NCBI GenBank assembly: GCA_024220525.1
Contig: JAMYWO010000142.1
Coordinates: 50,254-77,855, forward strand
Origin: Cochliopodium minus
Lineage: Eukaryota > Discosea > Himatismenida > Cochliopodiidae
Direction of reading: 5' to 3'
Length of the DNA stretch: 27,602 nucleotides
Under the pieces are notes generated by a model. The model ran no database searches. It was not told the origin of the DNA and saw nothing but the letters and a program-made list of their open reading frames with translations. Each line of letters begins with the position of its first letter. Position 1 is the first letter of the stretch. The translations under genes and the position numbers were made by a program. Below are positions 1 to 24,747 of the stretch, in pieces.

Positions 1-268
1 TGCATTTCAAAAAATATTTTTCCTTTTGGGAAAATAAATAGGTTTAGTATGGAATAACTGTATTTTATTTCTTTCAAATTTTATTTCTTACAATTTCTTT
101 CATCTCCAACCATGATGGGTAGTTATTTTGATTATTGGAAGGATTTTCTTGAATATCATTGTTTGGATCGTTATTTGTATCAAAAATTCCAGTAAAAATT
201 GAATCTCTTCTTTTTTGATTGTCGTATTCGGAGAAAAGATCAATCACTCTCTCAAAATTTTTATCCAT
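1..268 (-). CDS. fam-1: family member, 5' part only (runs off left edge)
   Basis: Unrecognised protein family; only the start of the gene is inside the window. Exon 1 is 92-268 (59 codons, ATG at 268 after an A-rich leader). Its donor is GTAAGA and the intron is 23-91. Exon 2 (domain A) starts at 22 and leaves the window after E-K-Y-F-L-K-C. Exon 1 carries R-V-I-D-L-F-S-E-Y-D at residues 7-16, a SIM-type hydrophobic core followed by acids, and ends in S-W-L-E-M-K-E-I just before the phase-0 donor. It is nearly identical to the first exon of fam-2 next door, so it arose by recent tandem duplication. The rest of the gene should lie to the left. Function unknown. Confidence 0.75.
1..268. repeat. 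Left copy of tandem-duplicated gene-start segment
   Basis: Bases 1-268 match 2314-2583 closely by eye: start of exon 2, first intron, all of exon 1 and the leader. The copies differ by scattered substitutions and a few small indels. The offset is about 2.3 kb, the spacing between fam-1 and fam-2. Confidence 0.85.
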
Positions 269-604
269 TTTTTTTTTTATCTTTATCTTTCTTTAAAGAG
301 GCTTTTGCTAAAATCCAAAAAGTTCTTTATTATTAATCTAGTTTAAAATTTGGAGAAATAATTAGAATTGTAGGTATTAACTGAATTCAAAGTTTTTAAT
401 AACTAAAATTTTTCATAGAAGTTTAAATCCTTTTAAACTTTTTTTTTAAAGAAAGTTAGTCCAGATGTAATTTTGAATTTGTATGATTTTTTGGATTAAT
501 CTTTTGAAAAAATAAGCAAATTTTAAATAATTTTGACTTTTTTAATTTTTCCCAATAAATTACAAGAAACAAAATTAATCATCCAATAAAAAATTAAAAA
601 CGAA
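269..604. other. Intergenic spacer between fam-1 start and fam-2 3' end
   Basis: No gene is visible. The stretch is AT-rich and should hold the fam-1 promoter and the fam-2 3' untranslated region. Its right end (about 541-590) is nearly identical to about 2860-2910 at the end of fam-3. In fam-3 those bases code the C-terminus L-L-D-D-stop. Here they lie just past the fam-2 stop codon, so part of the spacer is former coding sequence. Confidence 0.7.
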
Positions 605-2583
605 TCAATCTATTATTTCGACAATTTCATCAACAAATTCACTTTTGACAACTTTTTTTGGATCCAAAAAACCTCTATTCTGATTTTTGATGTTTTGTGG
701 GTTTTTGTAATCAAAGTTAAAACTATTATTTTGATTGTTGAAATGTTGTTGAGGAGAAAAGTTTTGTTGAGGAGAATAAGAACAATTGTAGGGGTGATAA
801 TAATTGTTCCCGAATTTTGAATGAACAGCATCTTCTTTCAATTTTTTGATTTCTTGCTTTAAAAGATCCATTTCGTTATTTTTCCTTTCTAATTTTTGAT
901 GAAGCTTCCTTATTTCCATTTGTAATAAAAACACATTGGAGGACTGTGGAGAAAACGAATTAAAATCGCTAACATTCAAGTTATTATTAGTAATATCGAT
1001 CATCAACGTTTCTTTTCCGTTTAAACCCTGAATGTATTGAGAATTAGACACATTATTCTGAATATTATCGTTTTCTGTTATTTTTCTTTTTTTATCTTTA
1101 AATTAAATTAATTTTTAAATTTAAAATCAAATAGTATTAATGAAAACTTCTTATTACTGTTGATAACTCGAGAAAAATTATTTTTGTTTTCATTAACAGA
1201 CCTATTCAAATCTTTGATGGGAGTAGAGTATTCCGAATCAATAATACTAAAACTACTATCGACAACATTTTTTTGAGGATTCGTGTTCTTTTGTGAGTCA
1301 TTAATTTCTTTGTTTTCAAAAAAAAAAAAAAAATTTGTTATAAAAATGGTTAAACCAAAAAAATTTAAAGCAAAGAATTTTATTCATAATAAAAAAAAAA
1401 ATTTTTCTTACTGTTAACTTGTTTGCTTTCCACCTTTAAAAAATTTAATGATTAAATTGAATCAAATTCTATCATTTTTTTTAAAAAAAAAAGAAAGATT
1501 ACAGGTGAGGTATTATTTCTTATAATTAGTTTAGATTTGAACCTCTCTTTGTGTGTTTCTATTATATCCCTCGCTTTTGTCATTTTTTCTTGAACCAAAA
1601 CATTTTCTTTGTGAAAATCTGAATACAACCTCAAAAAATTAGACAGGCCATTGTAATACACTTTCCTAGTATCACTCCCCAAATTGTCACTTAAATAGAT
1701 GATTGAACAATAGAAATTGATGTACTGAGTCAATTTTTCAGACTCGAATATGTCGCTTTGAAATTCTATCTTGTACGCCATGAGAACTCCTATCAATTTT
1801 CTTACTCCTGTTTTAACATGATTGCCCAATACACCTAAACTTTTAAATTCTTTCACATATTTTTTTGGATCATAGTGTTTCACCTGAAATATTTTTTTTA
1901 TATGATAAAATTTTTTTATTTAATATTATTATTTTATATTATTAAATATCATTCAATTTTTATATGTATATTTTTTACCTTTATTTGATTTTTTATTTGA
2001 TACTCAATCAATTTATCCACAACAACTATTGAATCCAAAAGATTCTTTTTAGAGAGATCATTGATCGATATTTCGCCATTTTTTATTCTACACCATTCAA
2101 ATAATACTTTCAAATCAGACAAGAAAATGATAGGAATGGCTGTATTTTCTGATAATTTCTCGAACATCTCGAATGTATCAGTGAAATTATTTGTTGAGAA
2201 GAAAGATTCTGTGAGATTTTTTATTCTTTTTTCATTGAAGAGATAATCAAAATATTTTGTCTCAAATCCATTTCCCAAATAACCTTTATCCATCACATAA
2301 TCTTCATAAAAACTGCATTTCAAAAAATATTTCTCCTTTTGGGAAAATAAAAATGTATTTGAATGTGAATAACTGTATTTTATTTCTTTCTAATTTTATT
2401 TCTTACAATTTCTTTCATCTCCAACCATGATGGGTAGTTATTTTGAATTTTGACATTATTTTCTTTAATATCATTGTTTGGATCGTTATTTGTATCAAAA
2501 ATTGCAGTGAAAATTGAATCTGTTCTTTTTTGATTATCGTATTCGGAGAAAAGATCAATCACTCTCCCAAAATTTTTATCCAT
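605..2583 (-). CDS. fam-2: domain A / domain B / coiled-coil protein with SIM-like ends
   Basis: Unrecognised family. Model: exons 2407-2583, 1979-2335, 1503-1883, 1412-1433, 1158-1307, 605-1074 (about 518 aa). All introns are GT-AG and phases agree. Residues 1-59 carry V-I-D-L-F-S-E-Y-D and end S-W-L-E-M-K-E-I. Domain A is about 60-178 (G-N-G-F-E, F-F-S-T-N-N-F, L-F-E-W-C). Domain B is about 179-305 (Q-Y-I-N-F-Y-C, Y-Y-N-G-L-S-N-F-L). A 22-nt mini-exon follows. A heptad-like coiled coil lies at about 415-446 (M-E-I-R-K-L-H-Q-K-L-E-R-K), then Q/N/F-rich sequence. The tail is D-P-K-K-V-V-K ending in I-V-E-I-I-D. A second SIM-like stretch, L-M-I-D-I, lies before the coil. The stop is TGA, and ten codons further in frame sits the L-L-D-D-stop tail still used by fam-3. 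Lowest certainty: the mini-exon and exon 5. Function unknown. Confidence 0.75.
2138..2335. repeat. Near-identical domain A patch shared with fam-3 (copy 1)
   Basis: This first half of the fam-2 domain A exon matches 4500-4697 in fam-3 with only about 14 differences by eye. The first exons, domain B exons and tails of the two genes are far more diverged, so the pattern suggests gene conversion or a partial duplication rather than simple descent. Confidence 0.8.
2314..2583. repeat. Right copy of tandem-duplicated gene-start segment
   Basis: Partner of 1-268. It covers the start of exon 2, the 71-bp first intron and exon 1 of fam-2. Confidence 0.85.
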
Positions 2584-2896
2584 TTTTTTTTTTTAATTAT
2601 CTTTCTTTAAAATTGCAACGATCTAAAGAAGATGGGTTCAACAATAAAATTTTAGTTTAAAATAGTTGAATTATTTTGGGAAAAGTGGGTATTTTTTAAC
2701 TGGATTCAAAGTTTTTACAATTATTTTAAAATGAAGTTAAATTTTTTACAGCTTTTATCTTTTTTTAAGAAAGTTTTCCAGGGATTTAAGTTTGAATTTT
2801 AATTATTTTTTGAATTATTTGGATTAAATAATCTTTAGAAAAATTATGTATTATTTTGACTTTTTTAATTTTCCCAACAAATTACAAGAAACAAAA
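2584..2896. other. Intergenic spacer between fam-2 start and fam-3 3' end
   Basis: No gene is seen. AT-rich, and alignable in patches with 269-604, as expected for the same spacer in a tandem duplication. It must contain the fam-2 promoter, but no recognisable box stands out from the A/T background. Confidence 0.65.
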
Positions 2897-4911
2897 TTAA
2901 TCATCCAATAAATCAATAGTCTCATTTTTTACAAGTTTTTTTGGATCAAAAGGAGCCCCACCTTGATAACTTGTAAAGTTATTTTGGTCAGAATTGTAAA
3001 CAGTATGGATCAACTCATTGTTATTACTTTGATTGCCAGAATTAGTGTTGTTGTTGCTACTTTGATCAATGTTATTGTGATCATAATTATTGTTATAATC
3101 ATAATTTCCATTATTATAAAAGTTTTGATCGAAATTATTTTGATGGGTATAATTTTGCGGAGGATAATAACTTTGCTGTTGATAAAAACCATTGTTAGGA
3201 GGTTTTCCAATCATTCCAGATTTAAGAAGTTTACATTCTTCTTTCAATCTTTTGTTTTCTTTCTTTAAAAGGTCCACTTTCAAATTTTTCCTTTCCAACT
3301 TTTGATGAAGCTTCCTAATTTCCATTTGCATCAAAAACTCATTTGGAGTTTGCTGAGAATTAAAAGAAGAAGAATCGAAATCATTTATATTCACATTATT
3401 ATGACTGTTCTGAAGACTATTTTTTTCGGGAGTTTTCCTTCCATAATCTTTCGCATTATGATTTACAAATAAGTTCATCAAAATAATTTTTTTTTTTTTT
3501 TTTTTTTTTACTTATATTGTTGACTTGAGAGCTGCCATTTCTAAAAGGACTTAAGAATTCAGAGTCAAGAGAACCGAAATTTCCATTCAAAAAACTATTT
3601 TGAGGAACCTTTATGCTTTGAGAGTTGAGCATGTTGTGACTCCCCGTGCCATTAACTTTTGTAATTTTTCTTTTTTTTTCTTTTCAAAAAAAAATAATGA
3701 GTGTTAAAATTAAACAAAATGAAAAAAAAACTAAAATATATTGATTAACAAACAAAATTATTCTCTTTGATATAAATATTTTCTATTTTTTATTTCCAAA
3801 TTTTTTTTACTAAACTTTTTTTTTTTTTGGATATTTTAAAAACTGTTTTACTATCAACCTGTTGGCTGCTTGTATCTTTGCGTGGTTTTTTGGGAGGCTC
3901 AACAACTTTTTTAGAAGATAATCTCCGTTTGTGCATCTCAATGATCCGCTTTGCATGAGCAATTCGGTTTTTTATCAAAGGGTCCTCCAAATTTTGTTTG
4001 TTGTACCAAACAAAGAAAGAAATCAAACCATTAAAGTATACAAAGCGGGAATTTTTATTCATATTGTCCACCGTGTATAAATAAGAACAAAAGATATTTA
4101 CGTATTTCGCCAAATCTTCAGATTCCAAGAATTTTTTGTCTATTTCTGGTAATAATATTAGGAGTGAGCCAACCATTTTTGCGTAGGAACTTTTTTCGTA
4201 TTCGTTTAACGATTTCAAGTCTTCGACTGGGATGTAATTATAATCTTTTTTGTGTTTCCTCTTTTTAAATTTTTTTTATTTAATGTTTTTATGTTCAATT
4301 AATCTTTTTTTTTTTCTTTTTTCCTAAAGTTTGTTACCTTTTTTTGAGATATTTGTTGATTTTTTTGTGCAATCGATTTATTGAGGATTTCTATTGCATC
4401 CAACAAATTTTTTTTTGAGAGGTCATTGATTGCTATATCATCATTCTTGGAGCACCATTCGAAGAATATCTGCATATCATACAAGAAAATGAGAGGAATG
4501 GTTGTATTTTCTGATAATTTCTCGAATATCTCGAATGTATCAGTGAAATTATTTGTTGAGAAGAAAGATTCAGTGAGATTTGTAATTTCCTTTTCATTGA
4601 AGAGATAATCAAAAAAATTGGTCTCAAATCCATTTCCCAAATAACCTTTATCCATCACATAATCTTCATAAAAACTGCATTTCAAAAAATATTTTTCCTT
4701 CAAAAATAATAAAAGGGAAAATATGAAAATTAAATTTGATATAATGATGGAATAATGCTTGTTTTACGATTTCATCCATATCCAACCATGATTTATATTC
4801 AATATTTTGGGTAATAAAAGAATTTTGAGAATTCTGTTGGATAATTGGATTTTGGGAAGATGAAGAGAAAATATCATTTTCATCTATTTCTGTATCATTG
4901 TTATTATCCAT
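2897..4911 (-). CDS. fam-3: domain A / domain B / coiled-coil protein, C-terminal IDLLDD
   Basis: Unrecognised family. Model: exons 4768-4911, 4338-4697, 3852-4260, 3512-3655, 2897-3447 (about 535 aa). Residues 1-48 are S/N/Q-rich and end in S-W-L-D-M-D-E-I at a phase-0 donor. Domain A is 49-168 (G-N-G-F-E, F-F-S-T-N-N-F, F-F-E-W-C). Domain B is about 169-285 (K-Y-V-N-I-F-C-S-Y, V-Y-F-N-G-L-I-S-F-F-V-W), followed by a basic P-P-K-K-P-R-K stretch that could be a nuclear localisation signal. A linker with D-S-E-F-L-S-P parallels D-S-E-Y-S-T-P in fam-2. The coiled coil at about 392-428 shares M-E-I-R-K-L-H-Q-K-L-E-R-K with fam-2. Then comes an N/Y/Q-rich tail and D-P-K-K-L-V-K-N-E-T-I-D-L-L-D-D. 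The acceptor at 3656 is the least certain, because alternative A-rich acceptors lie just upstream. Confidence 0.74.
4500..4697. repeat. Near-identical domain A patch shared with fam-2 (copy 2)
   Basis: Partner of 2138-2335. Similarity falls off sharply just upstream of exon 2, where the two first introns and first exons differ. Confidence 0.8.
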
Positions 4912-5060
4912 TTTTTTTTATTTTATTTTCAATTTTTTGAAGGGGTGATTGTAATTTACTAATATTAAAGAAGATAATACCAAAGGAAATAAGAAGAAAA
5001 ATTTAATGGAATTTTAAAAAATTTTGAAAAAAACGAATTTATATTTTAAGAGAGTTCTCT

Positions 5061-7197
5061 TCAATCTTTATCGTTTTTGACATCATAATCGCCAAAATCC
5101 TGTTGGATAACGTTATTGTTGCTTTCATATTGAAGATCCTCAACAGAAAGACCTTGAATAGGAACAGGAGTCTCGAAACCATTGCTGTTGGGGTTGTTAT
5201 TGTTGTTAGCATTGTTAAAAGCAAGGTAAGGTTGGCGAAAATCATTGATGGGATTGTTTTGAATTCTGTTATTGTTGTTATGATTATAAATTTGGTGAAA
5301 ATTGTTGTTGTTATTGTTGTTGTTAATGTTATTATTGAGGTTGTTGTTATTATTATTGTTATTGTTGAGGTTGTTATTGAGGTTGTTATTATTGTTATTA
5401 GGATTGTTCATTTGATTGAGATTATTGTTGATGCGATGATGCATCAGATTGTTATTGTTATTGTTGAGTTGGTTGTACTGTTGCGGAAGAATATTGTTCT
5501 TAGGAGGAAGAGAGTTGTTGTTCCAGTTGAAACTCTTTAGCCTATCATTCTCCTCCCTGAGCTTCCTGTTCTCATCCTTCAAGTTGAGCTTCTTGCGCTT
5601 CAAATTTTGGATTTTGGTACTCTTCCTCTCTATCTCAAGCTCCCTTTTCTTCAACTCTATCTCATACAACATCTCTCTAGACTTCTCAATGGGAAAGCTG
5701 CTCAAGTTCAAAGTCTGGTCGAAATGAATAGTACTCTTCATGATTCCATTGATATTTTCGTTGCCAATCGTATTGATGATTTTGTGTTGGATTGGAGCAA
5801 TGTTCTTGTTTGTGTTCAATGGGGAAATGGTGGTTTTAGTTTTTGTAAGGTTTTCCTTTTTCACTCTAGGTGATTTTCTCTCCAGAACTGGTTTTTTTTC
5901 TAAATATGCAATGATATTAAAAAAAAAAAATTGGGATAAGTATCATTTATTTCTTTATATAGAAATAAAAATTTGAAAATATTTTTAATTTTATTCTAGA
6001 TTACCTGTTTTTGCCTTGTTGTTTGTCTTTTTATTTGTTTTTTTGGGTCTTTTTTCTTTTTCATAAAAAACATAGTCATCGTCATCTTCATCCTTATATT
6101 TCTTCTTCTTCTTTTTGTCTTGTGGCTTCGAAGGCTTCTGCAAAGAAAGCGGGATATATTTGGGGATCTTCACCTTGTTCTTCTCCTTGAACTTGTTTAT
6201 GATGATTCTTGCAATAAACAACTTGTTCTTAAAGTCCTCCGTGTTCGAGTTTTTACACAGCCAATCCAAGAAGTTTACAAGCCTGTTTAGATAATCTCTG
6301 TTTGTGTTTTTTGCTTTGCATTCGTCCAATAAGATGTATGAGCAGAACAAATTGACATGTTTCAGAAAATCTTGGAAAACAAAGTCATTTGGAAGATCTT
6401 GGTCGAAGAAAAGCGACAATTTGAGAAGGTTTTTGAATCCTTGTTTCTCTAATTCCGAAACGTCTTCGGCTTCATCATATTTGGGTAAGTAGTTTTCTAT
6501 GTTAGCTTTTTCCTTTTCAAAAATACATTTTATAAAAAAAATCATGATTTAATCGTTTATATTAATTTAATAAATATAAATTAAATTTTTCATTTAAAAT
6601 AATTGAAGATAAGAATTTTTAATTCAAGGTATATTTGAATGTGTTTAAATGTTTTTTATTGGCTATAATTTTTGTTGAAGAAATTTCAATGATTAATTTT
6701 TTTGTTTTGTTACCCCTTTCAAAAAATACTCTGCTATTTTTACATTTTCTTCAAAAATCATTGCTTCCAATTTCAATATTGTTCCACTCATATTCTCTTT
6801 ATTTTCATGATTTTCTATTTCTTCATTTTTGTAACACCATTCTAACATATTCTTTATATCTAATAGTATAAAGATAGACATTGATTTATCTAATTTGATA
6901 GTATCGAATATATCTTGATTCTCCATGAATTCTTTGGATAAGAAGAAGGATATATCAATTTTTGGAATATTCTTTGTGTTTATCAAATAATCCAAATATT
7001 CTATCTCCATACCATTTCCCAAATAATCAATATCACCCAAATAAGCCTCCAAAAATGAGCATTTAGGGTAATATTTTTCCTATTTAAAAAATTTCAACAA
7101 AAAATAAAAAAATTTGAGAATATTAAAATGGATTTATGATTTTTACTATTTCAACAAAATTTAAGAATGGTCTAATCTGCTTAATATCTTGAATCAT
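5061..7197 (-). CDS. fam-4: domain A / domain B / coiled-coil protein with long poly-Asn tail
   Basis: Unrecognised family. Model: exons 7147-7197, 6714-7079, 6005-6512, 5061-5899 (about 587 aa). The 17-codon first exon ends I-R-P-F-L-N-F-V-E-I, the family's exon-1 ending in weaker form. Domain A is 18-139 (Y-L-G-N-G-M-E, M-L-E-W-C). Domain B is about 140-270 (Y-L-P-K-Y near its start, H-V-N-L-F-C-S-Y, K-N-T-N-R-D-Y-L-N-R-L-V-N-F-L-D-W). A lysine-rich acidic linker (K6 run, then D-E-D-D-D-D) follows. The coiled coil is at about 377-432 and is rich in E/K/R/L. After it come long Asn runs with L/M at intervals. No SIM-like end is obvious: the C-terminus is V-K-N-D-K-D. The intron between the A and B exons is 201 bp, long for this family. 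Function unknown. Confidence 0.75.
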
Positions 7198-7363
7198 TTA
7201 ATTTTTTTTTATATTAATTTTTAATATTTATTTTTTTCTAAATTTTGTATTGTTTGAATATATCTTATGTAAGTTGAGATAATGCAAAGTATTCAAAGCA
7301 CAAGAAATATTTTAAATGAAATTTGATTTTTTTTTTTTTAATTAAATTAAATAAAAGTGGAGT

Positions 7364-10078
7364 TCAATCCAAAATATCAATTACAGCAATGACTCTTTCT
7401 TTTGGAGGAGAATTTAACTCAATTTTTATGTTGGATTGTTTTCCTTGTTTGGGAGCAATGGGACTCACGTTGGTAGATTCAAAAGAAAGGTTGGAGTTAC
7501 TTTGGGAGGTACTGTGCAAAGAATTTTGTGAGATTTGAGAAGATAGACCATTTTCGTGTACAGAGTCTTTGTCAGGTGTATTTGGCACATAATTAGAAGT
7601 AATTTGAGTGTTTGTATTGTTATTGTTTTCATTATTAGGAGCGATGTTGTTAGGAATGTCACTATTTGTGTTGTTATTCGTATTATTTGTGTTGTTATTT
7701 GTGTTGTTAGGTACATAATTTATATTATTTTTAAAGTTGTTGGGTATGTTGTTTGGAGCAGTATTTTGGGGATTATTAAAGTTGGAATAATTAAAAGGAT
7801 TGTAATTTGGTTGTGAGTACTGAGAAAACATATACATGTAAGGATTTACATAACCATTGCTTGGTATGTTGGTACCATTTGGAACGTTATATTTAGTATT
7901 GCTGTTGTTCGTATTGTTATTGTTGTTTTCTTTTTTTATACTAGGAGCAGTAGATTCATTTGTATTTTTAACATTTTCGTTATTCGCATTGTTTGGAACG
8001 ACATTCACATTAGTTTTTGTGGAAAAATAAGGAGTAGAGATCATCTTATCACTCTGATAAAACTGAGAATAGTTGCACATTTGAGAAAAAAAGTTCATGC
8101 GGAACTGGGAAACTTCCTGATCGAGTTTCCTCTTTTCCTTCTCGAGCTGCTTATACTTGTTCTCAAGGTCAGTCTTTTCCCTTTGAAGAACCCGGTTTTC
8201 TTGAATGAGAGATTGGTTTTCATTTTCAGCTTTCTTCTTCTCTTTTTTGACTTGTTTGAGATCACGATTGACATTATCGATGTTATTTTGAAGGCTTTGT
8301 TTCTCATATCCCATGATGTCCAGCTTCACCTTTAGACTGTTGTTCTCTTGTTCTATTTCGTTGAGCTTCTTGGTACTTTCATCTTTCTCGATAATGTAGT
8401 TCAAGAACTGTTGGCTGCTGTTCATGAAATCCTGAGAAGTGTTATGAGAAACTCGAGTGTTTCTCTTAACTCCAATACGAATTTCATTGGTGTTGTTTTC
8501 TTCGATCATTTTCCTTTTTTTATCAATAAGAACATTGGTATTATTTTCATTGTTTTGGGTGGGGTTGTCATCATCAATCACCAAAAATTGAGTGCTTTGA
8601 GTAGAAAAAGCCTGGCTACCCTTGACATTCTCACTCTTGACACTAGTCTGTAACTTGCTTCTGATGTTATCTACGAAAATGAGAGCCTCCTTGATATTTT
8701 CTGAGATGATTCTGGAAGAATTAAAAGTAGTGGAACACCAGTCCAGGAAATGAATGACAGACTTTAACTTTGTGATTTTGGTGAGAGGCTGTGTTGAATT
8801 GTCTTTGTCCAAATAGATGCAATACTTCCTCACTTGCATGATTGAATTTTTGTCTTCGAAATACTGTCTGTTCAACTTAATCAACTTTGAGAAGTTTTTA
8901 AGGAACTTTAAGAAAAACTTTATGTCTTTTTTCCCTTTGGTCTCGTTATATTCAGTATAGAAACTGCAAAATCTTTCGCAATCTATTTTTGATCCCTTTT
9001 TTGTAGAAAAAATATTATTTTTATGTCAAATAACAATTTTTTTTATATTAAAATATTTGACATATTTTTTTTTTTTACCTTATTGCTGTTAAAGGATTCA
9101 TACTGATCTATTTCAGATAAAAATAAAAGTTTGTCTATAATATCATTGAGGTTTCTCTTTCCCCTAAATTTGGAAGACATGCTTTTGTGATTCACCTAAA
9201 AAAATAATTTTGTTTAAATAAGTAATAATAATCAATATTTATCCCAAAAAAATTCTTACCAACCAAGTGAAAAACTTTATCAAATCATTCAACATCGCAA
9301 TATCTCTTGAATCTTCAATGCTTGGAAAATCATCAAATGTCTTTATGAATAATTCTTCCATTATAAAATTGGGATCTATTACTATGTTCTTCTCTTTTAT
9401 ATGTTCAAAATACACTGATGTTTTGTCCATTTGTTTTAATTTTTTTTCGTTCATGTATGAATGATACAAGGGACAAATCTTATGTAATTTTTTGGATTTA
9501 TCTTTCTATATGAAGTGTTATTTGGAAAATATGTGAGTAAAAATGTAATTGATGAATGATATTGTATCTTGAGATTATAAAATTGATCCAACGCTCATAT
9601 ATTAAAAATATAGAAAAAATATACTTTTATTATTTATATCCATAATGATTCAAGTATTATAAATATCTATTTGTATATTAATTTTTACGTTCTCCAATTC
9701 AGTTTTGAAATCATTTTTTCTTGATTCCAACTTGTCTATCACCACATTTATTTCTCCTATCCTTATCTTTCCATTATTTTTCAACCATTCTGCATAATTC
9801 AAAATGTGATCTATCACTATCAATTTATCTGATGTTTTTTGTTTTGGAAATATCAATAAGAATTTTTCATAAGCCTTTATGAATCTATCTGATTTGATTG
9901 AAAACATATTTTCATTATCCCTTTCATTATAAAGACATTTGCTGTACAATTCCACTCCCTTTATTTCCACTTCCTTATTTGACCCTTCAATATCTTCCAA
10001 ATTAATTTCATTTGATTCTTCCTTTTCCAATATCTTCTTATATTCTTTAAAGGTTGAATAAATATTGGATTTTTCCAT
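7364..10078 (-). CDS. fam-5: enlarged member with two A-like modules, domain B, long coiled coil and SIM-like C-terminus
   Basis: Unrecognised family. Model: exons 9689-10078, 9260-9505, 9079-9195, 7364-8995 (about 794 aa), all phase 0. Exon 1 (130 aa) replaces the usual short leader and itself looks A-like (V-I-D-H-I-L-N-Y-A-E-W-L-K-N-N-G-K-I-R-I). Exons 2 and 3 form a second, diverged domain A split by an extra intron after F-F-T-W-L-V. Domain B (about 252-370) contains K-S-V-I-H-F-L-D-W-C. A short F-L-V-I-D-D-D motif near 388-394 is SIM-like. A long charged coiled coil spans about 450-555. Then comes an N/T/P-rich tail, and the end is V-I-A-V-I-D-I-L-D. The 183-bp intron joining exon 1 is the weakest part: exon 1 could instead belong to a separate short gene, but phases match and no other start fits exon 2. 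Confidence 0.68.
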
Positions 10079-10637
10079 CTGTTTTCTCTATTTTTTTTAT
10101 AATATTTATTATTTTATTTAATTTTAAAGTCTCTTTGATGATATTCCAAAATCTAATTCTCAAAAACCTCAAAAATCATTTTCTTTCTTTGTCAAGATTT
10201 TTGTTTTGGATTTTAAAATTTTTTTTTTTCGAATTTATAAAGTTGATATCGTTATATTTGTTTGTACAATTTAATATTTTTAAAAAAAAAAACGTTTTAA
10301 TCCAAATTTATTGTTATTATTTTTGAAAGTTGTTTGTTTTTTACAAGTTAGATCCGAAAATATCATCAAAATTATAAACAATTCCTCTATAAAAACAAAT
10401 AAAAAGCAAAAATGAAATTCAAAAAAATTTAGATCCTCATTACAAATATTAACAAGTGAATTAGAATTTTTAAAGAAGCTTCTTTAAAAAATATTTTTAC
10501 AAATTTAAAAAAAATTATAGTAAATATTAAATCCAAGATCTCCAAAAAATTTCCAAATAAAAAATCAATTAAAAAAAACTGTGAAAATAAATAAATAATA
10601 AATAAAAAAAAAAATTTATATATCTTTCAAATTAAAA
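10079..10637. promoter_or_regulatory. Divergent intergenic region between fam-5 and the CLU gene
   Basis: 559 bp with no coding signal; about 80-90% A+T by eye with long T and A runs. Both flanking genes start here and read outward, so it must hold both promoters. No distinct TATA-like or paired element could be picked out. It is also the point from which the leftward family array reads away. Confidence 0.5.
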
Positions 10638-12707: not shown

Positions 12708-13021
12708 TTTTATCAAGGATTCAAAAAATTTTTTTTTTTTTTTTATTTTTATTTTTATTTTTATTTTTATTTTTATTTTTATTTTTATTTTTATTTTTAT
12801 TTTTATTTTAAAATTAATTTTTTTCATTTTATTTTTTTTTTTCAGGTGGATTCAATACAATCTATTTTAGAAAATGGATTAGAGGTAGAATGGGAAAATT
12901 ATGATACANTGAATTCGATTTTTAGATTTATGAATTTCAGTATATGAGCTTTTAAATTTAAAAAATATCTAATGTGATGGATATTTGCCAATAGAATCAA
13001 TTGTTTATGAGTTATTGAGTC
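12708..13021. other. Gap after the CLU gene: hexamer repeat and possible 3' exon
   Basis: Mostly T-rich repeat. A candidate acceptor at 12845 opens a short frame, which could be an extra CLU 3' exon in a different phase or merely 3' untranslated sequence. Position 12909 is an undetermined base (n). The convergent beta-trefoil gene ends at 13022. Confidence 0.5.
12735..12812. repeat. (TTTTTA)n hexanucleotide microsatellite
   Basis: About eleven to twelve near-perfect copies of a T5A unit preceded by a pure T run. On the minus strand it reads as an artificial Lys-Ile repeat, which is not a gene. Confidence 0.9.
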
Positions 13022-13300
13022 CTAGTATATCTCGAATTTTCTTTAAAAAAACAATATTTACTTTTCCCAAGCATCACAATGTGAGATCAAATTCACAATA
13101 GTGAATAAATCATTGGCTCTCAAATAAGTTCCATACACAGAGGTGAAGGTATAAAGATTGAGATGTTTATGTACGATCCATTTCTCTTTGTCTCCCAATT
13201 TCTTCGATAGATTGACTGATTTATCTTTGCCTGCGCTCATATAATTTCCATGGTAAGATAGAAAACTTATAATGTCTCCATCTTTGAAACTTATTTCCAT
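13022..13300 (-). CDS. Small hisactophilin/fascin-like beta-trefoil protein (two of three repeats)
   Basis: Model: exons 13062-13300 and 13022-13040 joined over a 21-bp gap (13041-13061); 85 aa, stop TAG. Two beta-trefoil-type repeats are visible about 39 residues apart: Y-H-G-N-Y-M-S-A at 16-23 and V-Y-G-T-Y-L-R-A at 55-62. Each is followed by a strand-like stretch and an aromatic (W41; W78). The pattern is that of hisactophilin and fascin-like actin-binding beta-trefoils. Those use three such repeats (about 118 aa) or more, and the histidine loops of hisactophilin are missing. A 21-bp intron would be unusually short, so the frame may instead end at the TAA right after W-E-K (13058-13060), giving about 80 aa. 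Either way it is a short form, perhaps a dimer-forming or decayed copy. Function is inferred from the repeat pattern only. Confidence 0.55.
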
Positions 13301-13450
13301 TTTTTTTTGGTTTTTTTATTAAATTGAATTTATAATCAAGGAATAAATTAGATCAATGGTTTTCTTCTTTCAAATAAAGCTAAACTTCCAAATAAGTAAA
13401 CATTTTATTACTTAATGAATATTTTTTTATTTTTTTTTTTTTTTTAAAAA

Positions 13451-15794
13451 ATGAGGAAGTCTATTACAGTGCTTGATCTTACATCAGATCGTATCAAATT
13501 GATAGATAAAAGAAAAATAGATATAAATCATCCATGGATCAACGATGAGAATCACAAGCATTTGGTAATATTTTGAATTAAACTCATATATTTTAATATA
13601 GGATTTATAGAATCGAATATTTAAAGTATGTGATTATTATAAGCAATATATCACCAACAATAATTACATGGGAAATTGTTTGGAGAATGAATATTTTGAA
13701 AGTCTGATCTATGAAAAGAAAATAACAAAAATTGACTTTGAATTCTTCTCAAGTGTGCAATTTACGGATACATTCAGCATATTCGAAGATATAATGAACG
13801 AAAAAAAGCCATTCGCCATCGTATCATTGTTTGATCTCCTCAATTTCTTTGATTGGTGCCTTAAAAACCGCAAGATATCAATTGGTGATATCATCAAGCG
13901 GAATTTATCTGCAGCTATTGGGAAATTAGAATCATTATTGAATGAGCACGCTATAATTGAATTAAAAAATTTTTCAGAGGTAATAATAAAAAAGAACCTT
14001 CATTCTTGCTGATATATCAATCAATAAATAAAAAAACATAATTTATACCAAACATGATTGATCCATCAGCATAAGGGCAAATTTTTTTTTCTTTGAATAT
14101 GGACTCCAGACACATATTTTTAACACGATAAAAAAAATCATACATGTATATTGTAATTTACAATTAATATTTACATCCAGTGTATATAATTATGCAAATT
14201 ATTTTTCAAGCTATTTTCATACATCCAAAATCAATAAAAAAAAAAGATTAATTAAATTGAAAGGAACAATCAGTCATTAAATTGATAAATTTTTTATAGA
14301 AAATTATAAAAATAGATTGCCAGAGCTACCTTTCCAAATTCATTTTGGTAGAAAAGCAAAAGAATGATATGAAGAACGGACTCGCAAAACTGATAAAATA
14401 CATCAAGTTGCACATCCTCAACTTAGGAAGGGAGTTCATCTTGTCCAAAGAGGGATTAATGTACATCAATCATTACTGCTCTTTCCTTTTGATAATTACC
14501 AAATATGCCCGAAAATGTCGAACAAACTTGGCATTGAAGCTTTCTGAGTTTATGTAAAAAAATTTAATTAATTTTTTTTATTTTAATATTAATTTAAAAT
14601 TTTATTTTTGAATTATTCTCTGATTTTAATTTAAATTTATTTATATTTTTAATATTAGGAACTGGTACAAAAATCAACAGGCTGATATAAAAGATGAGGA
14701 ATTTTGTGGCAAGGCTGAAGAAATCATCAACAACTTTTTGGTTCTCATTAGAAAGGAAGAAAGATCCAACAAAAAAGGAAAAATGTCCCAAAGTCTGATC
14801 GGGAATGGTAATAATTTTTAAACATCATTTTTAAACATCAATTTTTTTTTATAATTTTTTTATTAATAACATTTTTTTTTATCATTTTTTCTTTAATTTT
14901 TTTTTTTTTGATAAATTTTTTTATTTTTATGAAGAAATGGAAAATAAGTTTAACATTAAAAACAACGAAAACAATCAGGAAGAGAAAGCGTATCCGAAAT
15001 CTCAAAACATGATGATCCACGAGAAAATGGAAGAAGAAGAAAAAGGATCTCAAGAGCTCTTCAGCCAAGGAATTTTCAGCGAGAAAAAGTCGAACCAAAA
15101 CAAAGAAAATAGAAAAAGAGATAGCGAAGAAGGTTCCGACAAAAATTCTTCTCAAAATAAAAAGTCAAATTATAGTCAATATCCTCCTAGTTCCTTTCAT
15201 CAAAAATATCACCCACAAAACTTTGATTTAAACAACGAAAAGTATGGGATAAAAATCAAAAATCTGAAGAAGAAATACAAGTCTTTGAAAAGCGACAATA
15301 AAAAATTGAAAGAAGACAATGAGAAGATGAGGGATAGTGCTGAGAAGATGAAGGAAGAGTTTAAACAGGAAATAGAGAAGATGAAAGAGTTCAACAAAAA
15401 CGCTTTTGACAGCATTTTCAACAATTTTAACAATACTAATAACACGAATAATAATTCTTTTTCTCGTTCGAATCCATATTACCCTCAACATTTTTTTCAG
15501 GCACAAAATAGTATGGGATTTCTGAATAATCATCTACCTAATAATCTTGGCCTTTTCACTCAAGCTAATACTGGAAATGTCCCTCCTTATTATAACCCTG
15601 TTAACCCTACTTTCCCTGGTTTTAATTCTATTCTCAACTCTAATTTCAACAATCCTCCAAACATCTCTCCACAATACAATGATCCAAAAAATCCACCAAA
15701 AAATAGTACTAACAATAATACTAATAATTTCAACAATCTTCCTCCTTCGAATGATCCCAATGTTTCTCCCCTCACTCAAAACAATCCTAATTAA
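13451..15794 (+). CDS. fam-6: domain A / split domain B / coiled-coil protein with N-terminal VLDLTSD
   Basis: Unrecognised family. Model: exons 13451-13564, 13611-13979, 14300-14553, 14659-14807, 14935-15794 (about 581 aa). Exon 1 (38 aa) has I-T-V-L-D-L-T-S-D at residues 5-13, the clearest SIM-like motif in the window with V-I-D-L-T, and ends near H-P-W-I-N-D-E-N. Domain A is 39-161 (M-G-N-C-L-E-N-E-Y-F, F-F-S-S-V-Q-F, F-F-D-W-C). Domain B is about 162-290. Its core (Y-I-N-H-Y-C, then L-S-E-F-M-N-W-Y) is interrupted by an intron inside the Met codon of F-M-N-W, a position not split in other members. The coiled coil is at about 398-453 (K/E-rich heptads). The tail is N/P/F-rich and lacks a SIM-like end. 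First member of the plus-strand array. Confidence 0.77.
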
Positions 15795-15913
15795 ATTCAT
15801 TTTTATAATTCTCAAATTATTAACAAAGTTGATGTAAACCCATCATCATTTTTTTAAATTCATATTGATTTTTATAATTATAATTATAATTATATAAATT
15901 TAAATAAAATAAA

Positions 15914-17567
15914 ATGGAAATTAATAAAAACGATTCTCCATTAAATAAAGATAAGGTTTGTTGATTAAGGATTATTTATTGTTTTATATTTATTTTATAG
16001 AACATTCTAGGACAAATATTTTCAGATCATAAAAATATACGAAACATATTTAAGCATTAAAAATCAACTATGGAATGGATTTGAGAGATTATATCTCGAT
16101 TATTTGATAGATGTAAAGAAAATGACATCTATTGACTTTGATTATTTCACAACGAAAGATTTCATCGATACATTCGACCAGTATATCAATGAAAAAGTAA
16201 ATCATGGAAGATTCCCTCTCATATTCTTCAATGATTTGTTTTTATTTTTTGGATGGTGTAATTTCAAGATGGAGAAAGAAAAAGATCAACAAATATATCT
16301 TAAATTAGCTATCAAAACATTGAAATCAAAGATGGAAGAATCTTCACTTGAAATATCGAAATATCTTAAAAATGTAAATTGCTTTTTTCTTTTTATACAA
16401 TAAATATCTTTAATATATAACTTGATTATTGAATGGATATCTCTAAATAATACTTGATAATCACAAATTATTTTCAAGAGAACCAAAAAATTAGATTTAA
16501 AAAAATACATTCCAAAATATAAAGAAGAAAAACCAAGTTTCAGCAACAAAACAGAAGAAAAAATGTGTATTTTTCTTGAATTCTTGAAATTCCACTCAGT
16601 GAAATTAGATAAAGACATCCTAACAAAAAAAACCATCATCCAATACTTTAATTTCTTTTTGATATATGTTTTTGTGGACGAAATAAAGTCTTATGCAAAA
16701 AAAAAAGACTATTACCATGAGTTGAACAATTATCTCATTTGGTGCAAAAGCCACAAGTCGGAAAATTCCGAAGAATTTCAAGAGATTCTGGAAGAGTTAA
16801 GCATTTCTTTCAAGAAACACAACAAGGTGAAACATTTTGTTACATCTTTATATTCATTATATTAAAGTTATTCTAAAATGAAATGTGTAGGTCTTTAGAG
16901 AGGTGCACGAACAAAAAAATGTTGTTCAAAATTCTCCGCACAAGAAGATTGAAATCAAAACAAGATCACAGGAAAAAACCAGTAAAAAGTTTTTTTTTAA
17001 AAAAATAATATTTTTAATTTCTTGATGATTTGTAAAGATAAAAGAAAGAAAAAAGAGTTTGTAGAAAATGAAAATATTAGTGCCAATGAATTATTTTTCA
17101 TTAATGAGATGTTGAGCTCTGAAGAAGATATTACAAGTTACGAAAATAAGGAAATAAAAAAGCCTATAAATTTGATAAAGAAAGTTATTTTGGAAAGTTC
17201 CAACAGAGAAAGTTCTTTTCGTAGAAAAAAAACTCACAAAAAAATTGAAAGATCAAGTTTTTACATCAAAAAACTCCAAAAATACAAATTTCTCAACAAA
17301 AAATTGAAAAAGGACGTTGAGGAATTTAAAACTATCCTCGCTCTCGTTCAAAATTTATTTCCCAATACACCCAACGCACCTTTTCCCTTTTTTCCTAAAT
17401 CCAACAACATTCCAAAAGAGGGTATGACAAAAAGAAACAGTATCAACAATGAAGTAACCAAACTGATTGAATCATACAAAGAAAAAAACAAACTTTTAAA
17501 GGAAGAAGTCGATAAATTTTCTTTTTCTCTTATTCCTTATTTAAATTGTTTTTCTCTAAACAATTAA
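15914..17567 (+). CDS. fam-7: short family member
   Basis: Unrecognised family. Model: exons 15914-15955, 16011-16373, 16479-16826, 16891-16981, 17038-17567 (about 457 aa). The 14-codon first exon lacks the usual W-L peptide and its donor is the unusual GTTTGT, so this exon is the least certain. Domain A is 15-135. It opens D-K-Y-F like the E-K-Y-F of fam-2 and fam-3, then W-N-G-F-E, F-F-N-D-L-F-L-F-F-G-W-C. Domain B is 136-251 (K-Y-I-P-K-Y, Q-Y-F-N-F-F, L-N-N-Y-L-I-W-C); the usual Cys after Y-x-N is replaced by Leu. Two short coiled coils lie near 355-390 and 420-446, separated by a P/F-rich segment. There is no long Asn tail and no SIM-like end. Confidence 0.7.
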
Positions 17568-17698
17568 TATATTGAGAATCTTATACATTTTCAATTAAAT
17601 TAATTACAAACTTTTCTTTTTTTTTTTTTTAACTGAAAATTTTATATATAATTGTGATTGTAATTTAATAAATTGAAATATAAAAAAAAGATTGATTG

Positions 17699-19274
17699 AT
17701 GATAAGTGAATTGAATTTTAGAATTAGACCATGGTTGAATTGGCCAATGATTGTAAAAAAAAAAATAAAAAATTTATTTGAAGCAAATTTTTAAAATATA
17801 AAAGAAAAGCTATGGAGAATATTTCGTTTTATATGGAATTTACACAAATGACGTGGAAAATTACAAGGGAAATGGATTGGAAGGGGAATATTTTAAAAAA
17901 TTGAAAGAGAACAACATCCCTATAATAAATGAAACATTTTTCTCAACAACTATATTCCCAAATTCATTCATACTCTTCAATGAAATCCGCAGACAAAAAT
18001 TTTCCTTGATAATATTTTACGATTTGATGGCATTTTTCATGTGGCTAATGAACAGAGAAGAAATAAAAAGGATAGAAGGGAGTTTAAAAAACATAAATGA
18101 AGCAATAATAAATCTGGATAATCATATAGAATGGGAAAATAATAGATTTGCAATGAGATTAAGCAAAGGAGTAAAAAAAAATGACTAATTCAACAATTTA
18201 ATTATAATATTGATAAATCGCAAATTATATTTTCAATTGTAGTTAGATGAACAAGAACTTGAAACATACTTTCCTAAATACGAAGTTCTTCAACCAAAAA
18301 GCAAGGAGATCTCAGGATTCAGCACGTTTTTGAAGTTCATCAAAATGTATTTCCCAGAGAACCCTCCTGAAGACTTTTATTGCAACAAAGAAACAGTCAA
18401 CTACATAAATTATTTCTGTTATTGTATTTATGCAAACTTCAAAAAGGCGACAGCTACAAAAAGAAACTATTTCACTTCTGTAAGAAAGTTTTTGAAATGG
18501 TGTTTGGGAAAGGAAAAGTCATTTATAAAGAAAGACTTTTTACACGACTGCAAGGATGTTTTGGACGAGTATTTGAGGCTCATTAAAATCAAGTTCAAGA
18601 AAGAGAGCCCCAAAGATAAAACAGATTCCAACAAAAAAACAACGAAGAAGCGAGTTTCGAGGGAAACTTCTCCTTCTGCCGTAACGAACAAAGAAGGAAG
18701 TATTGAGATCAGAGAAGGAAGTATTGAGATCAAAGAAGGAAGTATTGAGAACAATTCTTCTCCCAACTATTTAGAACTTAGTGAAACTGCTTCCAACAAA
18801 AGAATTTGTATTGATCTTTCAACTCCTCCCGAAGAAGAAATTGTCGAGAGGGATCCTTTCACCAAAGCAGATGAACTTATCTTTAGAGAATTTGTCGAAG
18901 ATACTATTGTTGATCAGATCTCTGATCTTAAAATGGTTAATCTTCTATCTGAAAAAAAGAATCTCTTCTTACAGTCTGAATACGATTCAATAAAGTTGGA
19001 AAATCAGCTTTTGAAGGTGGAAAATAATAATTTGATTAATGAAAAAGAAATGCTTTTGGATGATTTGGGAAGAAAAGATGAACAAATTAACAAATTACTT
19101 AAGAAATTGAGTGACAAGAAGATGGAAATTGCAAAATCAAAAGAAAACATGGAATTGATTTTAAGAGGGATTGAATCTTCTAACACTGTTCAACCTTATT
19201 TTTTTCATTCTCAACCACATCATTTTCATGCTCAACCAAATAATAATGTCAACCCTTCTCATCCTAACAAGTAA
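17699..19274 (+). CDS. fam-8: domain A / domain B / SIM-like / coiled-coil protein
   Basis: Unrecognised family. Model: exons 17699-17752, 17805-18170, 18243-19274 (about 483 aa); domain B and tail share one exon. Residues 1-18 end R-P-W-L-N-W-P-M-I. Domain A is 19-140 (Y-K-G-N-G-L-E-G-E-Y-F, F-F-S-T-T-I-F, F-F-M-W-L; the Cys is lost). Domain B is about 141-262 (Y-F-P-K-Y, N-Y-I-N-Y-F-C-Y, K-R-N-Y-F-T-S-V-R-K-F-L-K-W-C). Then a basic linker, three copies of E-G-S-I-E-[IN] (291-310), and I-C-I-D-L-S-T-P-P-E-E-E at 328-339, a textbook-looking SIM with an acidic flank. The coiled coil at about 364-454 is the longest uninterrupted in the plus array. The C-terminus is H/Q/P/N-rich (F-H-S-Q-P-H-H-F-H-A-Q-P). 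Function unknown. Confidence 0.77.
18693..18752. repeat. 21-bp in-frame tandem repeat (E-G-S-I-E-I-K) inside fam-8
   Basis: Units 18693-18713, 18714-18734 and a shorter third to 18752, nearly identical at DNA level (one base differs between units 1 and 2). It lies just upstream of the SIM-like motif. Confidence 0.9.
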
Positions 19275-19488
19275 CAAAATACATTGATCTTGATTTGTTA
19301 AATAATAAAATCAAAAAAAAAAAAATTTCTTTCTTTCTTTTTCACTCAAAAAAATATATTTAAAAATATTAAAATAAAATCGTACAATATAAAAATTATA
19401 AAAAAATAAAAAATAAAAAATCGATTGTAAAATAAATTACAAAATAAATAATATAAAAAAAAAAAATTTACAAAATAAATAATAATAA

Positions 19489-22400
19489 ATGTTGAGTAAT
19501 TTTGAAAAAAACTGGTTGGATTATGATGAATTGGTAAAATTTTTTAATTTTTTGCAAAATAAAATATAAATATAAAAAAAAAAAAAAAATATAGAAAAAA
19601 TATTTTTCATTTTGCAAATTTTATGAGGAATACATAAATGATAAAGATTACTTTGGAAATGGTATGGAAAAGGAATATTTTAAATTGATACAAGAATTTA
19701 AATTGGCAGAAGAGATAAATGATGATTTCTTTTTGAATCAAAATTTGAATATTGCAAATACATTAATTACATTCGACGAAATAAAGAATAGAAATTCTTA
19801 TTTCACATCCATTATCTTCTTTGATATTTTAGAATTCCTAAAATATTGCAAGAATAAGAAATATGCAGGGAGGAATGTGGGAGAAATATCGAAAATGATT
19901 ACAATTTTGGAGACAAAATTAAAATTGGAAAAAAAGAAATTATCAAATGAATTCAGAAGCGTAAATATCCTCAAATAATAATCCCATTTAAAAAAATTCC
20001 ATTAAAAAAAATTTTTTTTTTTTTTTAGCCTTCTGTAAGAAAAATATTTACATAAAAAAAAAAAAAAAATCAATGAATAATTATTTACTTTTCCAAAAAA
20101 TTATTTTTTTTTTTTTTAAATTAAAATTATAGTACCTGCAACGCTCAGATCTGAAGGAATACTTCCCAGAATACGTAAAAACAGAATTGTTATCAGAACT
20201 AAACAAAACAGGAATGAAGTACATCATAAAGTTTTTGGCAATAGTAAAGGTAGAACCTCCAAAAGATTTTTTCCAAAAGAAAGAGGCGATCAAATACGTC
20301 AACTTTTACTGTACCTACGTTTACATGGACGATTCCAAATCAAAGAACACAAACAGAGATTATCTACAACGTCTCATCAATGTGCTGGATTTTGTGATTT
20401 CAAACCATGCCCAGGAGAATTCGGAGCAGTACAGGGAAGTTTTGAAGGAATGTAGGAATCTCGTTGAGAAACACAAAGTGAGGGTCAACAAAAAAATTCC
20501 CACCGAAACCAAAAGAAAGAAAACCGAGAAAAGTGAGAGTAACAATTTTTTATTTTTAAAAAAATTTATTTAATTATATTTTTTATTTTTTTTTTATAAT
20601 GTTATTTATTTTTTATTAGATTCTCAAAAGAGCAAAAAGAAAAACGAGAAAAATCTTAGTAACAAATCGGCGAAAATTTTGAACATTTCATCTCCGAACA
20701 ATAGTAACATGGGAGACTCATTCTTAAGAATTAATCATCAATATGAAGAATTTTCGGAACTTTCTCAAGAAATAAGCCAAAATCACAAAAACCAATTTCT
20801 GAATAACCAAAGTAGTCAAACCAGTCAAAGTACTCAAAGCTCCGAAAGTAGTCCAAGTTATGAAACACAAAATTCCCAGAATAATACTCCTCTCTCCAAT
20901 AACAAATCTCCTCCTGGAGACTCTAACAATAATTACAATTTTAATTACAATGTTAATAGTGGAAGTAATTCTGATATCCAAAGTAATTCTCCCTTCTTTA
21001 CTCCGACCATTGTTAATTCTCCCCCCTTTACTCCGACCATTGTTAATTCTCCCCCCTTCACTCCAACAACGGTTAATTCTCCGAATCTTTTCACTATCAA
21101 AAACAACACAAACCAAAAAACTCCAAATATTTCTCAAAACACCCCTCTCACCAATGATAAATCTCCCACAAATCAACCTAACAATAATACTTTTGAGATT
21201 TTTTTTAATAATAAAAATAACAATAACATTAACTTAAGTAACCCCAGTTCTCAAAATTCCCAAGAAAACTCTCAAACCAATTCTTCTTCTTTTTTTATTA
21301 CTAATCCGAATTCCTCTCTCACCAATCTCAAATCCTCCACAAACAACCCCACTAACAATAATTCTAATAACAATAATAATTTAAATAATAACAATAATTC
21401 TAATAACAATAATAATAATTTAAATAAAGTTAGTAGTATTAATAATAATAATTTAAATAATGACAACAGTAGTATTTCTAATAATAATTTAAATAATAAT
21501 AACAGTAGTATTCCTAATAATAATAATAATTTAATTAAAATTAGTAGTACTTCTAATAATAATGGCAATTTAAATAATAATTTAAATAATGATAACAGTA
21601 ACTTTAACATTTCTAACCCCAATTCCCAAAATTCCCAAGAAAACTCCCAAACCAACTCCCCTCAAGTACAACTTATTAACAAAGATGTGCATCCTCGCAT
21701 CGCCCTTCCTCTTTCGAAGCAAACCTTTTTTTCAAAAAGCAATAACCAACAAGGAAGTAGTCCCACCAAATTTCTTGCCAAAAGTAATACCCCCCAAAAC
21801 ATCACCCCACTTCACAACAATAATCCTCCCAAAAAAACAATCCCTCCCACCAAAAATTTACACAATGATATTCCACAACACCACTCCACTACTCCCAAAC
21901 AAAAACTTCTTACCAAAAACAATAAAAGTAGCTTAGGTTCTATTAAGAATGATTCAAAAGAGGTTTTGCTTAATTTAGGAGGGAAATCTTATTCATTTCC
22001 TTCCCTTTCTTCGATCCTCTCTTCTAAAATTGCTAATTTAGATGTGAAAATTGAAATTGCTTTTATGAAAAAGGAGCTCGAAAGTTTGAGAGAGGAGAAT
22101 CTCATGTACAAAAAATCCTCCAAAGAACTTGAAAATCAAAAAATAAAAGAGATTTTGATCAAAGAAGATGAGACTCCCAACTTTGAAGTTTTAAATTTGA
22201 AAAGAGAAATGGAGGAAATGAGAAAGAAGTTTCAAAAGTACGATAAATTGAAGGAAAAATGTAAAAAACTAATGAGGGAAGCTGAGGAATCACGAGTAAA
22301 AAACTGCCTCAATGTCATCCACAACAAAAGTTTTGTTAACCCTCCTAGTTTCAATACTCAACCTGTTTCTACTCAAAATTTTTTTAATCCTAATCCTAAT

Positions 22401-22583
22401 CAAAGCATTCCAAATAATTTCAATCCTAATAATAACAATAATCCAAATTATTTCCCTCCTCAAATTCCACAAAATCAATTTTACAATAATTTGAATCCTA
22501 ATTTTAATTATAATCCCAATAATAACACTTTACCTCCACAAAATCAAAACTTTCCTAATCCAATGAATGATACAAATATCTAA
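19489..22583 (+). CDS. fam-9: largest family member, very long Asn/Ser/Pro-rich region
   Basis: Unrecognised family. Model: exons 19489-19533, 19595-19960, 20133-20532, 20620-22583 (about 924 aa). Residues 1-15 end N-W-L-D-Y-D-E-L. Domain A is 16-137 (F-G-N-G-M-E-K-E-Y-F, F-F-D-I-L-E-F-L-K-Y-C). Domain B is about 138-265 (Y-F-P-E-Y, K-Y-V-N-F-Y-C-T-Y-V-Y, K-N-T-N-R-D-Y-L-Q-R-L-I-N-V-L-D-F). Its K-N-T-N-R-D-Y-L matches fam-4 exactly. Residues about 290-740 are S/Q/N/P low complexity with a three-unit F-T-P-T-I-V-N-S-P-P repeat and a duplicated S-Q-N-S-Q-E-N-S-Q-T-N-S block. The coiled coil is at about 744-835, including E-I-L-I-K-E-D-E. The tail is N/P/F-rich. Here the coil sits after the disordered stretch rather than before it. 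Confidence 0.77.
20992..21090. repeat. 30-bp in-frame tandem repeat (F-T-P-T-I-V-N-S-P-P) inside fam-9
   Basis: Units 21001-21030 and 21031-21060 are almost identical; 21061-21090 is more diverged (T-T-V). The C-rich runs make it stand out from the surrounding AT-rich sequence. Confidence 0.9.
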
Positions 22584-24725: not shown

Positions 24726-24747
24726 TTTTTTTTATTTATTTCAAATT

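Follow-up and report, generated by a model that had tools for sequence, protein, structure and literature searches.

A stretch of 27,602 nucleotides from the protist Cochliopodium minus (C142:50254-77855, from a genome assembly of 44.65 Mb in 598 contigs) carries a tandem array of nine genes that form one family. We refer to the whole stretch as the window; its GC content is 26%. The genes join a leader, copies of two domains here called A and B, and a coil with a tail rich in asparagine and glutamine (N/Q-rich). Judged by profile comparison, A and B are copies of a single module and not two separate unknown domains. The module is a four-helix unit in predicted structure, and we lean, if only slightly, towards the view that its fold is that of the N-terminal core-binding (SAM-like) domain of tyrosine recombinases. 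It is quite possible, if short of probable, that the proteins encoded by the array bind DNA, probably in the nucleus, have no catalytic role and are made from one repeated recombinase-type module.

A single module underlies A and B

The evidence for a single module comes from copies outside the window. Searches of the genome with a single A or B exon returned the window cluster and one weak A match on C358, where a paralogue carries three tandem modules; these copies led in turn to C58, C449 and C3, giving related modules on five contigs in total. A profile for profile-profile comparison was made from 22 modules on the four contigs outside the window, with the split third module of C358 omitted. 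This outside-module profile matches A with an hhalign value of 97.6% (E 4e-12) and B with one of 96.7% (E 4e-10); compared directly, the profiles of A and B reach only 38.7% (E 3e-4).

A smaller profile of ten outside modules was run on all frames of at least 40 residues from the window and seven further loci. Of the seven A exons it recovered six, at E 5.9e-10 to 5.3e-7, and missed that of gene 9 (E 0.37); the B frames of genes 2-9 were recovered in every instance (8/8, E 7.8e-10 to 0.007, the weakest being gene 6); unrelated frames start near E 0.01 to 0.07. Gene 5 proved to hold three modules, the second of which is split over two exons: when spliced it scores E 6.2e-8, module 1 scores E 0.0016, and the best of 1,000 shuffles reaches 0.13. 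The number of modules per gene varies, from three in gene 5 to between one and three in the paralogues on other contigs.

The first-pass annotation of this DNA had described a fixed A-B order of two unmatched domains. That description gives way to one module present in one to three copies, and the notion of two distinct unknown domains was dropped because the profile comparisons link both to one outside-module profile. Its statement that neither A nor B matches a named family holds, in that no Pfam family scored above its cut-off when five A and five B copies were scanned; the named families that surfaced in those scans (LisH_PAC1, GatF, Phage_lambda_P, Phage_int_SAM_1 and others) were all below cut-off and scattered.

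Counted as lower bounds, at least 17 modules lie in the window (seven A, eight B including the third module of gene 5, and two more in gene 5). Outside it there are at least 15 in open frames plus one split module on C3, where frames are mostly single-module, at least two on C58, three on C449 and three on C358.

Organization of the array

Both the count of nine genes (five on the minus strand, 1-10078, and four on the plus strand, 13451-22583) and the tandem arrangement with its A exon positions, as given in the first-pass annotation, are borne out by stop-to-stop frames and sequence. All seven A exons are 357-369 nt long, a multiple of three in each case, and flanked by AG and GT (7/7), with B exons, coil and tail behind them; splice junctions were read off the sequence. 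The A exon of gene 3 is 29-78% identical to the six others, and eight B copies can be aligned. A G-N-G-x-E signature had been ascribed to the family; it is present in A copies, though confined to them and absent from some (gene 6 has G-N-C, gene 7 W-N-G). Coil and N/Q-rich frames follow the B exons, with the exception that the tail of gene 7 is not N-rich. In Pfam no coil match was seen for genes 4, 7 and 9, and the matches of the others are to generic coil families below cut-off. Between the two half-arrays lie a gene with a CLU domain and a short frame resembling a beta-trefoil. The members, from left to right, are as follows, each with the evidence on which it was drawn.

1-268, minus strand: gene 1, truncated at the window edge after a leader exon (268-92) and the initial 22 bases of the A exon; 51 of 59 leader residues are identical to the leader of gene 2.
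605-2583, minus strand: gene 2; leader 2583-2407, A 2335-1979, B 1883-1503, coil and tail frame 1102-605; frames, exon flanks and module profile.
2897-4911, minus strand: gene 3; leader from 4911, A 4697-4338, B in frame 4275-3790, coil and tail frame 3511-2897; frames, exon flanks and profile; A was modelled.
5061-7197, minus strand: gene 4; leader 7197-7147, A 7079-6714, B in frame 6548-5991, coil and N-rich tail frame 5942-5061; frames, exon flanks and module profile.
7364-10078, minus strand: gene 5; modules 10078-9689, 9478-9260 plus 9195-9079, and 8998-8642; coil and N-rich tail to 7364; frames and module profile.
13451-15794, plus strand: gene 6; leader 13451-13564 (containing ITVLDLTSD), A 13611-13979, B split between an exon at about 14300-14555 and one after 14659, with the coil and tail frame running to 15794; frames, exon flanks and profile (the first B exon reaching no better than E 0.007).
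15914-17567, plus strand: gene 7; leader from 15914, A 16011-16373, B in frame 16461-16865, tail frame 17001-17567; frames, exon flanks and module profile.
17702-19274, plus strand: gene 8; putative leader near 17702-17750 (without an identified start codon), A 17805-18170, B and coil 18243-19274 (contains ICIDLSTPPEEE); frames, exon flanks and profile.
19489-22583, plus strand: gene 9; leader from 19489, A 19595-19960, B in frame 20133-20573, N/Q/S-rich tail and coil frame 20574-22583; frames, exon flanks and profile (A missed); B was modelled.
26129-27602, minus strand: candidate tenth member; coil and N-rich tail alone, with no module visible inside the window; open frames.

Past the left edge, next to gene 1, the DNA is N over the 5,000 bases fetched, and past the right edge it is also N; a Pfam scan of the right-edge frame 27244-26132 returned no family. 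Near the end of the leader a W-L piece recurs in genes 1, 2, 3, 8 and 9 (SWLEMKEI, SWLDMDE, PWLNW, NWLDYDEL). Counterparts are FLNFVEI in gene 4 and PWIND in gene 6, and gene 7 is without any.

Predicted fold and possible kinship with tyrosine recombinases

AlphaFold2 models, built from alignments of 14 window modules (the split B of gene 6 omitted), are confident and helical for both copies: the predicted local distance difference test (pLDDT) score is 94.3 for the A copy taken from gene 3 and 81.2 for the B copy taken from gene 9. When the B model was compared by VIA-align with 999 Foldseek-ranked chains, recombinase N-terminal domains filled 15 of the top 20 rows: 3nrw at Z 7.0 (92/104 residues, 3.0 Å) and Cre/Tre chains at Z 6.3-7.0 (89-97 residues, 2.8-3.4 Å, the N-terminal domain up to residue 123). 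The structural register would be that of XerD and Cre, as suggested by helix order, VIA-align giving only end residues.

Sequence comparison yields hints of the same kind. In NCBIfam, three of the 22 outside modules match XerS, the best with E 1.7e-4, and one matches XerC; in Pfam, Phage_int_SAM_1 matches two (best E 0.0083), a member count no higher than that of DUF6434 or AAA_23. The outside-module profile aligns to residues 26-91 of the XerD profile with a score of 21.8 (probability 2.7%, E 0.017); the highest of 60 column shuffles is 15.4, and reversed profiles give about 10. On Cre, where it aligns to residues 69-95, its score is 16.6 and the highest of 100 shuffles 15.4.

Several observations weigh against a recombinase-type fold. 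The top VIA-align row for B is an unrelated axonemal chain (Z 7.1), values of Z near 7 may by VIA-align's own caution arise by chance for helical bundles, and the recombinase rows comprise just two proteins, 3nrw and Cre or its variants. The A model, which is the better scored of the two, finds no recombinase among 298 chains. Foldseek, run with both models against PDB and BFVD, returned nothing at E ≤0.001 (best 1.1 and 0.74; viral models 0.45). In the XerS and Phage_int_SAM_1 matches, module helices C-D are paired with the recombinase's first two helices, a register unlike that of XerD 26-91 and Cre, and these matches were dropped as positional proof. A larger profile of 35 modules (five of 40 rows, split, partial or doubtful, omitted) exceeds its shuffles for XerD (25.7 against at most 21.1 in 60), yet does so in that same other register, and for Cre it scores 12.0, under its shuffles (14.3). 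Integron integrases score 8.6 and 9.3, not above shuffles (up to 14.5 for the 22-module profile), and a search of the genome with PF02899 found no match at E 0.1. The sequence hints of recombinase kinship are the same in kind, yet weak and mixed in register.

The Foldseek result also speaks for a different explanation, which we regard as somewhat doubtful while taking it seriously: that the module has no relation to recombinases and is a four-helix bundle of a generic kind, serving as a protein-protein interaction domain in cytoplasmic or cytoskeletal scaffolds with coils and disordered tails. The VIA-align list for A, a mixture of unrelated bundles with Z up to 5.7, fits such a bundle, and scaffold proteins commonly have coils and N/Q-rich tails. 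Set against it are the predominance of recombinase domains among the top rows for B and the recurrence of recombinase families as a sequence hint in two libraries; the charge and helix D features described below bear on it in both directions.

Two other libraries were tried and set aside. Searched by sequence profile, PDB gave for B a myosin/alpha-actinin chimera as best match (E 0.012) and for the outside modules nothing below 0.3. PHROGs returned 36 families; among the 25 listed, each has one member, with a best E of 0.0042.

The catalytic domain of tyrosine recombinases, PF00589, has two matches in the genome, neither at a locus of this family, in an exon-by-exon search of the stretches outside N. 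One lies in what we read as a DIRS-like element (C18:205500-210000), with reverse-transcriptase-like and tyrosine-recombinase frames (PF00589 E 9.3e-6); its recombinase region does not rise above background against the module profile. The other is a tyrosine recombinase gene at C163:3000-6500, Bacteroidetes-like on our reading, and because this recombinase looks bacterial C163 may be a contig of a bacterial contaminant or symbiont.

Helix D and charge distinguish A from B

The two copies differ where a recombinase-type domain would meet DNA. Helix D starts with S or T in 19/22 outside modules, 6/7 B copies and 0/7 A copies, and K or R lies within five residues of that start in 20/22, 7/7 and 0/7, respectively, the B counts omitting the split B of gene 6 and the comparison being dependent on an alignment in which A is shorter at this place. 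Helix D of A is hydrophobic. The helix-D start aligns with T87 of Cre, beside K86 and Q90, which we take to be DNA contacts. Mean net charge is -3.4 for seven A copies, +5.9 for seven B copies and +3.7 for the 22 outside modules. Because charge and helix-D start differ in this way, we infer that B is the DNA-contacting copy and A an altered one. The overlap of the charge ranges (A -11 to +2, B -2 to +10, outside -12 to +13), with B of gene 4 at -2 and A of gene 9 at +2, tells against this assignment.

An acidic A with a hydrophobic helix D is also what favours a generic bundle engaged in protein-protein contacts, whereas the basic character of B and of most outside modules, together with their retained S/T plus K/R start, argues against one. 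For proteins built on a recombinase-type module these features suggest a division of labour. Where a gene has two modules, DNA contact would fall to B, the C-terminal copy, through helix D with its S/T and K/R start, and the N-terminal copy A, on average acidic and with those residues lost, probably acts as an interface between proteins or for dimerisation. Oligomerisation would come from the coil, the N/Q-rich tail would recruit partners or form condensates, and the whole could act as a sequence-specific regulator or chromatin scaffold. The first-pass annotation had proposed a structural or regulatory role; the evidence leans to DNA-binding proteins.

Tails and SUMO-related motifs

Motifs in the tails raise another explanation, one we hold to be very unlikely: that the proteins are SUMO-linked nuclear-body scaffolds, in which SUMO-interacting motifs (SIMs) and psi-K-x-E sites in the tails form condensates and the modules are merely address tags. 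A strict SIM-like pattern has 10 matches, spread over 8 of the 21 tails, where shuffles give 1.7 (0/1,000 reach the observed number), psi-K-x-E sites number 42 against 22.8 (0/1,000), and ITVLDLTSD sits in the leader of gene 6. However, the strict pattern was picked after the sequences had been seen, close C3 paralogues make up four of its eight carriers and the right-edge candidate gene a fifth, and the tail set took in just 9 of the 15 C3 open frames. A permissive SIM pattern is not enriched (10 against 9.4; 477/1,000 shuffles reach it), and numerous psi-K-x-E sites fall in coils. SUMO involvement, as drawn from these motif counts, is only a lead. RGRGRK repeats in the C358 tail had led us to suspect an AT-hook; Pfam gave none at E 0.1.

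Evolution of the family

That this is an expanding tandem family, as the first-pass annotation held, is supported by the related modules on five contigs and by a recent duplication of the gene 1/gene 2 region (80.9% identity over 617 columns). Genes 2 and 3 have diverged unequally along their length (1503-2335 and 3790-4697): A is 78% identical, with a ratio of non-synonymous to synonymous substitution (dN/dS) of 0.29, B 34% and the coil-tail stretch 52%. In three neighbouring C3 paralogues (C3:169000-177000) the last 180 bases are identical (180/180) and the modules only 49-58% identical, a contrast that suggests gene conversion of the tails in these three genes.

It is conceivable, though we consider it unlikely, that the protist independently reused the DNA-gripping domain of a recombinase as a large multi-module DNA-binding family, in which duplication within genes let A become a protein interface while B kept the DNA contact, and which is engaged in an arms race, for example the silencing of DIRS-like elements of the same genome; on this view the arms race is suggested by modules that diverge fast beside homogenised tails.

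Comparison with known systems

Stand-alone families of recombinase-type DNA-binding domains are already known (ALOG; Gcr1/Ndc10). The ALOG domain of the plant LSH1/G1 family finds 3nrw, Cre and XerD by HHpred and carries a zinc ribbon (HxxxC and CxC) inserted between its second and third helices, according to Iyer and Aravind (2012, PMC3537659), on whose work the statements about ALOG and the fungal family below also rest. Likenesses are several. ALOG is a stand-alone recombinase-type DNA-binding domain between low-complexity regions, without a catalytic domain, as the module putatively is; the structural neighbours (3nrw and Cre; XerD) are common to both; and an alcohol residue in ALOG helix 3 with basic residues nearby has its counterpart in outside and B modules, not in A, provided that module helix D corresponds to ALOG helix 3, as we infer. 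Unlike ALOG, the module shows no zinc-ribbon insert: inspection by eye of the alignments of 22 outside and 14 window modules found no conserved Cys/His pattern of the ALOG type. The protist family also differs in its one to three modules per protein, its coil and N/Q-rich tail, its large tandem arrays and its acidic partner copy A.

The fungal Gcr1/Ndc10/Msn1 family, derived from Cryptons, is similar as a set of recombinase-derived DNA-binding domains turned regulators (PMC3537659); no matching Pfam family is among the matches listed for the modules, and no profile comparison aimed at that family was made. MrpR, the repressor of prophage SPbeta, likewise binds DNA by a recombinase fold after recombination was lost, but it resembles the recombinase fold as a whole (PMC10516654), whereas here only the N-terminal-type domain is seen. 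The fold that the module probably adopts is that of XerC/D-like tyrosine recombinases and DIRS-1 integrases; they differ from the protist family in that the family loci yielded no catalytic domain and are spliced eukaryotic genes with coils and disordered tails.

A literature search, covering papers open without subscription, recognised no protist family of this kind among the matches listed. If the DNA-binding interpretation is true, this protist built its own DNA-binding family, tandem and multi-module, from the non-catalytic half of an integrase, and did so separately from the ALOG case in plants and the Gcr1 case in fungi. It would offer a test case for parts of mobile elements turning into regulators, and a mere annotation of coil plus disorder would become a family with a testable function.

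Neighbouring genes

Between the half-arrays the CLU-domain gene occupies 10602-12930 on the plus strand, with frame 12249-12656 scoring above cut-off (E 2.8e-9). A run of TTTTTA-type repeats (12733-12811) lies between its frames, and the one N of the window is near 12909. The short frame at 13058-13300 (minus strand), between the CLU gene and gene 6, resembles a DUF569/fascin-type beta-trefoil (E 5.5e-4, below cut-off). To the right of the array, a spliced gene on the minus strand (22649-24731) resembles a short Beclin/Atg6, with Apg6 BARA at E 9.7e-4 and the Apg6 coil at E 0.089, both below cut-off. It is followed on the plus strand (24961-26085) by a gene like the N-terminal domain of biotin-protein ligase, containing GICAGA (BPL_N E 0.0093, below cut-off).

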